From NCBI GenBank assembly GCA_018668255.1, contig JABISZ010000045.1:1-64000 (forward strand): a stretch of 64,000 nucleotides of DNA, in the 5' to 3' direction. The stretch's first letter is position 1. Each line of letters opens with the position of its first letter. This DNA comes from Pseudomonadota bacterium (GTDB taxonomy: Bacteria > Pseudomonadota > Gammaproteobacteria > Ga0077536). Shown piece after piece: positions 9,270 to 48,047 of the stretch. The position numbers and the translations under genes were made by a program. The notes below the pieces were generated by a model that did no database searches, was not told where the DNA came from, and was given only the letters and a program-made list of their open reading frames with translations.

Positions 9270-9720
9270 AACTAGTACCTTTTATATATACCATCTTTTG
9301 TAAGTATCAGACTCTTGCCCGATGGCAAAATAGCAAGAGCAGTAAAAATGATGTGTCGTTTTAAGTGCAAGATCAATAAACGCCGATAATGAGTGAGAGG
9401 AGTGATATATGTGTGAGTTCGATAAGCAAGGTCTGTGAAAGTAAGATTTGGGTCTTTAGGTGGCTGAGCAGTGTCGGGCTTGTACGTTGCCGATTGTAGG
9501 CAGCATGCATACCGTAATTAAATCCCCAGCTTTTTCGACTATTTCTTCTATCCCCAACTAAGCAATACGCTTTACGCGCGAATCTTTATCATAAACCTCT
9601 ATGCGAAAGGTGGCAACACCTGTCTGCCGCGGAAGGTTGCACTTCTCGGGTTGACCAAAAACAGGTTCTTTTTCAAGAGAGAGAAATTTTTAATTTCTAA
9701 TGCAAACAATGGGTTACGAA
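9270..9720. other. 451-bp gap with a leader region and a possible decayed reading frame
   Basis: No intact gene is visible. The left part is the leader of the RRM gene. On the minus strand, from about 9689 down to 9456, one frame reads VFGQPEKCNLPRQTG and RIEVYDKDSRVKRIA, hits a TAG at 9558-9560, and goes on in the same frame as GIEEIVEKAGDLITVCMLP to a TAA at 9456-9458. It has no clear start codon or ribosome site. It may be a gene remnant or chance. A small inverted repeat (GAAATT/AATTTC) lies near 9682-9696. I saw no tRNA or known riboswitch. Confidence 0.3.
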
Positions 9721-45357: not shown

Positions 45358-47442
45358 ATGGGAGAAGTAGTCAACTACAATCGAGAAAATGAGATCGCAT
45401 ATATCTCGGTGAACAGCCCGCCTGTTAACGCCCTTTCTTTGCCAGTCAGAACCGGCCTGCAAAAAGCTTTTCAAAAGTTCAGCGCTGACTCGGAAGCTAA
45501 AGCTGCAATTTTAATATGTGAAGGACGTACTTGGATTGCGGGTGCAGACATTACCGAGTTCGGTAAACCACCTGAGGATCCCTGGTTGCCGAAAATCGTC
45601 GAACAAATGGAAGATTGTGAGAAAATCATAGTGGCTGCTATTCATGGAACAGCATTGGGTGGAGGCTTTGAAACTGCCATGGGCTGTCATTATCGTTGTG
45701 CAGTAACAACAGCAATGGTGGGGCTGCCGGAAGTAACTTTAGGTTTGCTAGCAGGCGCAACTGGCACACAAAGATTGCCTCGATTAATAGGAGTGAAAGC
45801 AGCACTCGATGCTATGGTCAGCGGTGCTCCTATTCCAGCTAAGGTTGCCTATGAAGCCGGAGCAATTGATGAATTGATTGAAGGGGACCTTAGAGAAGGT
45901 GCTACTGAGTATGTTAAACGCCTCTTGTCTCAGGGTGCAAAACCAATCAAAGTTCGCGAAATTGAAATTGATACTTCTGATATTGGAGAACATTTTTTTG
46001 CTGAATACCGCAACGGGATGGCAAAACGTACACGTGGATATTTCGCACCAGAGCAAATTGTTAAATGTGTTGAGGCGGCAGTTTCATTGCCATATCAGGA
46101 GGCTGTAAAAAAAGAAGGTGAGTTATTCATGGAATGTATGATGTCCTCACATTCTGTAGCACAGAGACATTTATTTTTCGCTGATAGAGCTTGCGGTAAG
46201 GTTCTCGACGTTCCTAAAGAGACGCCTCTCAGACCAATTAAGAAAGTCGCAGTGATCGGTGGCGGCACTATGGGAGGCGGCATCGCGATGAATTTTGCAA
46301 ATGTGGGCATTCCAGTGGTGCTCAAAGAGATCAATGAAGCCGCTTTGGAAAAAGGCCTAGAGATTATCCGTTCTAATTACAACGCGACGGTTACCAAAGG
46401 TCGAATGAGCGCCGAACAGATGCAAGATAGATTGAACATCATATCGGGAACAATCGATTATAGTGGTGTAGGCGACTGCGACCTGATTGTAGAAGCTGTC
46501 TTCGAAAATATGGCGCTTAAAAAAGAAATATTTGGTGAGCTAGATAAGGTAGCTAAAGCTGGCGCTATCTTGGCAAGTAACACCTCGACGTTGGATATTG
46601 ATGAAATAGCGAAAGCTACTAATCGACCTGGAGATGTTATCGGTTGGCATTTCTTTGCCCCGGCAAATGTAATGACTCTTCTAGAGATTGTCCGCGGTGC
46701 GGGTACTTCAAAAGACGTGATCGCAACGTCCATGGCGATGGCCAAAAAAATCAAGAAAATTGCAGTCTTGGTCGGGGTATGCTTTGGATTTGTTGGGAAC
46801 AGAATGTTCTTCCCATATGTTCGAGAGGCGCAGCAGATGATTCTAGAAGGAGTATCTCCTGAGAGAATTGATCAAGTTGCTTTTGATTGGGGAATGGCTA
46901 TGGGGCCAAATGCGGTATCGGATCTGTCAGGCCTGGACGTGCTAGATAAAGTTAAAAGTGAGTGGGAGGATCGTCCGGAAGATCCCTCGTTATGGGCGGT
47001 TGGAAGTAAGCTTGTAGAAATAGGTAGATTAGGACAAAAAACAAAGGCTGGTATATTTACATATGCGGGGCGTACGGCAGTGCCTGATGAAGCTGTTGCT
47101 AAGGTTGCTAAGGAAGAGGCCGTGCGTTTAAATGTTAAACAATTAGAAAATGTGAGCGATGAGGAAATTATTGAGCGTTTGATGTACTCAATGATTAATG
47201 AAGGCGCACTAATATTAGAGGAAGAGATTGCCATGCGATCTAGCGATATTGACGTAGTCTTTGTCCATGGTTATGGGATGCCACGTTATAGAGGCGGCCC
47301 AATGCGTTATGGGGACACTGTAGGGTTGGCAAAGGTCGTTGAGGCTATGGAGAAATATCGCGCACGATACGGAGATATGTATTGGACGCCGGCGCCATTA
47401 CTTGCTAGATTAGCAGCATCTGGCGGTTCTTTTAGTGATTAA
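45358..47442 (+). CDS. Bifunctional enoyl-CoA hydratase/3-hydroxyacyl-CoA dehydrogenase
   Basis: This 694-residue FadB-like enzyme carries a crotonase domain (residues 1-190) with both glutamates (GGGFETAMGC and LPEVTLGLL), then a 3-hydroxyacyl-CoA dehydrogenase with NAD site VIGGGTMGGGIAMNF near residue 300, and two C-terminal dehydrogenase repeats. The dehydrogenase signature runs HFFAPANVMTLLEIVRG. It performs two consecutive beta-oxidation steps. A partner thiolase does not follow; the thiolase at 24524 could serve. Length fits the peroxisomal-like multifunctional type. It precedes the selenoprotein gene by 41 nt. Confidence 0.93.
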   Translation: MGEVVNYNRENEIAYISVNSPPVNALSLPVRTGLQKAFQKFSADSEAKAAILICEGRTWIAGADITEFGKPPEDPWLPKIVEQMEDCEKIIVAAIHGTALGGGFETAMGCHYRCAVTTAMVGLPEVTLGLLAGATGTQRLPRLIGVKAALDAMVSGAPIPAKVAYEAGAIDELIEGDLREGATEYVKRLLSQGAKPIKVREIEIDTSDIGEHFFAEYRNGMAKRTRGYFAPEQIVKCVEAAVSLPYQEAVKKEGELFMECMMSSHSVAQRHLFFADRACGKVLDVPKETPLRPIKKVAVIGGGTMGGGIAMNFANVGIPVVLKEINEAALEKGLEIIRSNYNATVTKGRMSAEQMQDRLNIISGTIDYSGVGDCDLIVEAVFENMALKKEIFGELDKVAKAGAILASNTSTLDIDEIAKATNRPGDVIGWHFFAPANVMTLLEIVRGAGTSKDVIATSMAMAKKIKKIAVLVGVCFGFVGNRMFFPYVREAQQMILEGVSPERIDQVAFDWGMAMGPNAVSDLSGLDVLDKVKSEWEDRPEDPSLWAVGSKLVEIGRLGQKTKAGIFTYAGRTAVPDEAVAKVAKEEAVRLNVKQLENVSDEEIIERLMYSMINEGALILEEEIAMRSSDIDVVFVHGYGMPRYRGGPMRYGDTVGLAKVVEAMEKYRARYGDMYWTPAPLLARLAASGGSFSD

Positions 47443-47483
47443 CACTAATCGATTTTTGAAAGGTTAATTAAACGGGAGGCTAA

Positions 47484-48047
47484 GTGTCTAGAATTAAACT
47501 AGTTGAGAAAGAAGGTTGTGACGAAGAAGCCGAGGCTTTATTTAATCGTATGGAGGCTATGGGATTTTCGCTACTGAATGTGTTTAAACTTTGGGCGAAC
47601 AACCTGAAAGGCGCTACAGGCTTTTTGCATATTGCTGAAGCCTTGTATCTGGATGCATCCCTATCAGCGCGTTACAGAGAGTTAGCATACTTAAGAGCTT
47701 CTCAAGTAAATAATTGTCATTACTGAATACCTACTCATCAGATGCTCAGTCGGAGCGTCGGTATAACGGAACAAGAACTTGCATCTATGGAGACTCCAGA
47801 CAGCTGTCCGTCCTTCAACGATGTCGATAAGCTGGTATTGATCTATTCGGAAAATCTTACAGCTACTAACGAAGTGGGGGACGAGGTTTATGCTCGCTTG
47901 CAGAAGGCTTTTAGCAACGAAGAGATTATGGAATTGGCGATGACAGTTGGCTTATCAGCTATGGTTAACCGAGTCCATGCAACCTTTGAAACAGATGTTG
48001 ACGACTCTACCCAAGATTTTGTCTCGACATTGAGTTGTCCTTTGTAA
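47484..48047 (+). CDS. Carboxymuconolactone decarboxylase/AhpD-like selenoprotein (in-frame UGA, CxxU)
   Basis: Read through one TGA at 47724-47726, this is a 187-residue AhpD/CMD-family protein with selenocysteine at position 81. The frame is continuous on both sides. The redox motif reads Cys78-His-Tyr-Sec81, then His85. Together with Glu66 in RELAYL, the spacing equals that of mycobacterial AhpD Glu118, Cys130, Cys133 and His137. A hairpin with SECIS features starts just after the UGA. The GTG start has a strong site (GGGAGG, 4 nt). The second half (FNDVDKLVLIYSENLT; SNEEIMELAM) is ordinary CMD sequence. AhpD-like CxxU selenoproteins are reported from marine metagenomes. Expected role: thiol peroxidase or thiol-disulfide redox partner. 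A nonsense mutation is the alternative. Confidence 0.85.
47727..47764 (+). promoter_or_regulatory. Candidate bacterial SECIS element
   Basis: Directly after the UGA, GATGCTC (47741-47747) pairs with GAGCGTC (47753-47759) in a 7-bp stem with one G-U pair. The apical loop AGTCG has G in the second place, as the bacterial SECIS model requires. A lower stem ATACC/GGTAT (47727-47731 and 47760-47764) closes the structure, with 9 unpaired bases on the 5' side. The loop G is 23 nt past the UGA, within the usual range for SelB recognition. Confidence 0.78.

Follow-up and report, generated by a model that had tools for sequence, protein, structure and literature searches.

AhpD-like selenoproteins with a CxxU redox motif were first reported in 2005 from Sargasso Sea data, in which 27 sequences were found (PMC1088965), as the first-pass annotation of the present locus had correctly stated. 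In 2008 the set was enlarged with GOS data to 299 AhpD-like 1 (COG2128) and 70 AhpD-like 2 (pfam02627) sequences (PMC2398784), and such proteins appear again in a 2026 review, which also records a CxxU selenoprotein form of the peroxidase-related enzyme TIGR01926 (PMC13188914). Among the relatives that carry a second Cys at this place, M. tuberculosis AhpD acts as an adaptor for AhpC, while PA0269 has a weak peroxidase activity; their proton relays comprise Glu118, Cys130, His132, Cys133 and His137 in the former and Glu36, Cys48, Tyr50, Cys51 and His55 in the latter (PMC3141380). A search of the available literature retrieved no biochemically studied AhpD-like selenoprotein.

The gene considered here lies at 47484–48047 on the forward strand of a 64,000-nucleotide stretch of gammaproteobacterial DNA (the window) and is predicted to encode 187 residues with Sec at position 81. 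Like the Sargasso Sea and GOS sequences, it combines a CMD/AhpD-related product, a CxxU motif and a downstream SECIS-type hairpin, and, again like them, it has Cys homologues. The subfamily to which it belongs differs from the earlier sets in occurring in genomes with a full Sec machinery, in that no Cys form was found among its near relatives, and in often standing beside selA; AhpD-like 1 and 2 being metagenomic reads, this comparison is by description only, and some overlap with the present subfamily is possible. Among the NCBIfam models, the best match of the product is TIGR01926 (residues 2–172, E = 1.7e-16), but its 60.5 bits fall short of the cut-off (81.8), which leaves it outside that family. 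Two further models that also describe AhpD-related (seleno)proteins represent different subfamilies, namely NF041238 (AhpD_rel_CFYUT; 22.2 bits against a cut-off of 175) and NF053654 (GroundWater_YciW; 49.7 bits against 310). Assignment to an existing NCBIfam selenoprotein equivalog was accordingly rejected, the scores being below every cut-off. The AhpD-like CxxU kind has thus been known since 2005, and what is new is a Sec-only, selA-linked subfamily that falls below the NCBIfam selenoprotein cut-offs.

A CMD-family frame with one in-frame UGA

The frame starts with GTG, preceded by what reads as a Shine-Dalgarno-like GGGAGG (47474–47479, forward strand), ends with TAA and contains exactly one internal stop, the TGA of codon 81 (47724–47726, forward strand), in the local context ...NNC78HYU81IPTH85.... 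Re-reading it bears out several points of the first-pass annotation: the single TGA stands at the second Cys of CxxC in a CMD-family frame, the numbering of Glu66, Cys78, Sec81 and His85 and their AhpD spacing are correct, and coding quality persists past the UGA. Codon log-odds in the frame of the gene are 0.199 before the UGA and 0.167 after it, as compared with 0.18–0.24 in the neighboring genes; both alternative frames of the same segment score below zero. The match to the Pfam CMD domain (PF02627) spans the UGA (residues 47–102, E = 1.3e-12, 48.0 bits with a cut-off of 23), and the product exceeds the cut-off of the AhpD core domain model TIGR00778 (41.7 against 27.8 bits). Translation table 11 breaks the same segment into one ORF of 80 aa and another of 101 aa, which is the splitting that had been anticipated for automatic annotation.

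Such a split frame, in a draft assembly that is itself fragmented (2.30 Mb, 98% complete, 106 contigs), could be read as a broken CMD gene in which a TGC or TGT codon had mutated to TGA or had been misread as such. The distribution of the TGA speaks against this. The gene is present in 21 of 58 relatives, the source genome included, all of them from one family, i.e., in 21 of the 36 family genomes examined. The 20 other family orthologues are 49–94% identical to it, each with exactly one in-frame TGA, and this falls at the identical codon in 21/21 (20 by script, with the 21st, L049/L084, confirmed separately). A wider scan of 84,980 species, with one genome per species and two peptide patterns, one of them independent of the Sec/Cys site, returned 23 loci, with TGA at the site in 23/23. 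Gammaproteobacteria are among the sources of these loci, as are records bearing the titles Candidatus Binatia, Candidatus Binataceae and Desulfurellaceae. Many of the loci belong to species already represented by the family genomes; L069 and L079–L081 contribute four new proteins. No Cys form of the subfamily was found among the 21 family orthologues and the 23 scan loci: the nearest Cys homologues are only about 30% identical, with CVYC, CAYC or CSYC at the site, and TGC or TGT occupies it in the distant homologues L085, L086 and L052. Close relatives carry UGA at this site and show no scattered nonsense changes, and coincidence is ruled out by its recurrence in the 21 family orthologues and in independent public assemblies. 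With TGA recurring at codon 81 in assemblies of more than 20 species, no other stops, similar coding quality on both sides and a synonymously constrained hairpin (see below), a broken or misread gene retains a vanishingly small probability, and both pseudogene and sequencing error were rejected on account of the conservation of the UGA across species.

Three of the gene-bearing records (L070, L075 and L082) are titled Klebsiella pneumoniae, yet they match genomes of the uncultured family of the source, and these titles are very probably wrong.

The SECIS-type hairpin

Past the UGA, folding, pair retention and synonymous constraint point to a bacterial SECIS-type hairpin, GAUGCUC-(AGUCG)-GAGCGUC, at 47741–47759 on the forward strand. 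It has a stem of 7 bp and a loop of 5 nt, the latter lying 21 nt after the UGA and bearing a G at its second position followed by U, with an MFE of -10.2 kcal/mol (z -3.84). In each of these respects it stays within the published limits for the bSECIS, namely a loop of 3–9 nt, a stem of 4–16 bp, a G at loop position 1 or 2, a spacing of 16–37 nt and an MFE of at most -7.5 (PMC13188914). Across 20 distinct sequences none of the seven pairs is lost and five of them are invariant, with no two-sided compensatory change found in that set. Because the pairs hardly vary, covariation was unusable as a guide to the SECIS, and synonymous constraint was used instead. Where the residue is shared, codon identity is 0.92 at codons 86–92 versus 0.42 elsewhere, a value reached in 0/300 within-gene codon shuffles; Leu88 is CTC and Val92 is GTC in every sequence compared.

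Longer folded stretches are only mildly more stable than their shuffles (z -1.06 and -1.88). An extended hairpin with a lower stem AUACC/GGUAU was considered and set aside, being present in the window sequence but not retained by most relatives in the alignment. At position 47748 the loop of the window starts with A (Ser89, AGT), whereas all other orthologues have G there (Gly, GGT); the SECIS model nevertheless holds for the window, given the G at loop position 2.

Selenocysteine machinery and genomic neighborhood

All four sel genes are present elsewhere in the source genome, with selB spread over two contigs. The selA gene lies at C74:5416–6789 (577.9 bits), and selB starts at the end of the same contig and goes on at the start of C54. 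The two contig ends (the 3' end of L024 and the 5' end of L025) overlap inside selB by 203 bp at 95.6% identity; the assembly has thus split selB, and more than one strain seems to be mixed in the genome bin. On C54 there follows a tRNA-Sec (9371–9460; 70.2 bits, above the Rfam threshold), which a second program, ARAGORN, also names tRNA-SeC, with the anticodon TCA; over the 64-kb window itself, Rfam and ARAGORN found no RNA gene. The selD match on C14 (313.8 bits) forms the C-terminal half of a fusion protein of 743 aa (L027:1147–3378). SelD here has the sequence CGGC, while the N-terminal part is oxidoreductase-like and was assigned to Ndh by eye. The Ndh-SelD fusions reported from GOS data (PMC2398784) have CxxC in every case, and the C14 fusion with its CGGC is alike.

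A read-through frame alone is silent on which residue is inserted, and the UGA might be read without selenium as some other amino acid (e.g., Trp, as in code 4) or through near-cognate read-through. This is very improbable in view of the Cys that homologues outside the subfamily carry at the site (CVYC, CAYC, CSYC), of the presence of tRNA-Sec, SelA, SelB and SelD, and of a gene that is never seen without selA; moreover, the other genes of the window appear to use UGA as a normal stop, many frames gaining only a few codons when it is read through. Taken together, the read-through frame, the conservation of the UGA, the constraint on the SECIS-type hairpin and the Sec machinery (selA, selB, tRNA-Sec and selD) make it almost certain that 47484–48047 encodes a selenoprotein of AhpD-like fold, with Sec insertion itself inferred from these lines of evidence. 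In this the first-pass annotation, which had proposed a genuine AhpD/CMD-type selenoprotein with a CxxU motif, is upheld.

The tie to the Sec trait extends beyond the source genome. selA is found in 31 of the 58 relatives, including 21/21 of the carriers of the gene, and tRNA-Sec, likewise in 21/21 carriers, agrees with it in distribution; the co-occurrence of gene and selA gives a Fisher p of 0.008 when the family alone is counted and of 2e-8 for the 58 genomes together, values to be read with the proviso that the genomes, being related, are not independent samples. In eight species (G012, G015, G019, G021, G024, G027, G030 and G032) the gene lies about 100–155 bp from selA, as measured between match ends, being codirectional with it in G012 and divergent in the seven others, with tRNA-Sec on the same contig. 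Two genomes of the same family, G003 (from the genus of the source, 87% complete) and G013 (100% complete), are without the gene, selA and tRNA-Sec, a pattern that suggests loss of the whole Sec trait.

In the source genome the place before selA is held not by the 47484–48047 gene but by another AhpD-related selenoprotein gene, the third in this genome (L024:4265–5359, on C74), directly upstream of selA; it is a true member of NF041238, with the CFYUT motif and 338 bits, and its UGA, too, makes standard ORF lists show it in pieces. The second Sec gene of the CMD family in this genome, with the motif CFLU (L026:1935–2489, at about 63934–64488 of C87), is related to NF053654 and scores far below its cut-off (78.5 bits against 310); its second TGA, after ...SCPL, is probably a true stop.

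Around the gene itself stand an ADH-type reductase and an enoyl-CoA hydratase/3-hydroxyacyl-CoA dehydrogenase upstream, and an AMP-binding enzyme of the acyl-CoA ligase type downstream on the opposite strand. The enoyl-CoA hydratase/3-hydroxyacyl-CoA dehydrogenase gene (45358–47442) is on the same strand at a distance of 41 bp, an arrangement that four further members of the genus share (L060, L062–L064) and that might suggest an operon in which the selenoprotein serves beta-oxidation. Such a role is improbable, since the flanks examined outside the genus did not contain the beta-oxidation neighbor and selA takes up the neighboring position in eight species; with the gene order kept within the genus only, an involvement in fatty-acid breakdown is weakly backed. 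The placement directly after a beta-oxidation gene, as first noted, is thus correct, whereas a functional link with beta-oxidation is not supported outside the genus. The further proposal that the protein protects the local oxygenases and flavoenzymes finds no support either, the beta-oxidation neighbor being confined to the genus and selA being the recurrent one.

Fold, active site and possible chemistry

An AlphaFold (AF2) model of the product, with Cys replacing Sec, is all-helical (pLDDT 90.4, pTM 0.86), and its best PDB matches in Foldseek are the AhpD-like proteins 3c1l, 2pfx, 6k40, 2prr and 2ijc. The fold class is that of M. tuberculosis AhpD and PA0269, although overall identity is low (21–28% to the PA0269 chains in structural alignments). 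Five residues, Glu66, Cys78, Tyr80, Sec81 and His85, are invariant in the subfamily alignment and follow the spacing 12/2/1/4 of PA0269, i.e., the Glu-(11)-Cys-x-(His/Tyr)-Cys-(3)-His relay that it shares with M. tuberculosis AhpD. On the forward strand, the codon of Glu66, a predicted proton-relay residue, lies at 47679–47681 (spacing as between Glu36 and Cys48 of PA0269), the TGT codon of Cys78, the partner of Sec81 in CHYU, at 47715–47717, and the codon of His85, again predicted to belong to the relay, at 47736–47738 (spacing as between Cys51 and His55); Tyr80 matches Tyr50 of PA0269. At the second Cys of these enzymes the present product has Sec.

From these elements a course of events may be proposed. 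During translation, the hairpin at 47741–47759 would recruit SelB with Sec-tRNA(UCA), so that the UGA would be decoded as Sec81, the Ndh-SelD fusion presumably supplying the selenophosphate from which SelA would make the Sec-tRNA. The product would then fold as an all-helical AhpD/CMD unit in which Glu66, Cys78, Tyr80, Sec81 and His85 would constitute an AhpD-type proton relay. The selenolate of Sec81 most likely attacks the substrate, a peroxide or a disulfide, after which Cys78 would form a selenenylsulfide with Sec81, to be re-reduced by a cellular thiol donor. By analogy with the characterized relatives, a thiol- or selenol-dependent reduction of peroxides or disulfides is the probable chemistry, with both the substrate and the reductant inferred, and Sec may improve on the weak peroxidase activity of the PA0269 type. 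No AhpC gene was found among the neighbors scanned.

Alternatively, the protein could be a selenoprotein, as argued above, and differ in its chemistry only: instead of being a peroxidase, it would be an adaptor that reduces disulfides, or an enzyme resembling a dehalogenase or decarboxylase, with a Sec nucleophile directed at an organic substrate. The presence of the debrominase Bmp8 (6ohi, 6ohj; TM 0.80) among the structural matches, the acyl-CoA and flavin-oxygenase type enzymes in the neighborhood, and the adaptor role of M. tuberculosis AhpD toward AhpC make this a possibility of some weight. It is nonetheless the less probable one, as Bmp8 is only about 15% identical, all five relay residues are kept at the AhpD spacing and the closest matches are named as antioxidant or peroxidase-related proteins.

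Beyond the reductase chemistry favored here, the C-terminal tail ...SCPL (48030–48044, forward strand) contains a conserved Cys, C185, present in 20 of 23 orthologues, which may be a further redox thiol; the last residues of this region are of low confidence in the model. On a more speculative and rather unlikely reading, C185, on its flexible tail, would be the third redox residue of a three-center selenol/thiol relay in a Sec-only AhpD subfamily tied to the Sec operon, one that perhaps protects or tunes the selenium pathway instead of being a general peroxidase.

The locus is a clear case of a real enzyme that the standard ORF list breaks into two fragments, here a selenoprotein of uncultured Gammaproteobacteria that comparative data fully support. 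No curated model that was tested names its subfamily, in which no Cys form was found among near relatives and linkage to selA recurs, and the question of why Sec is kept at the AhpD active site in some lineages could well be studied on it.
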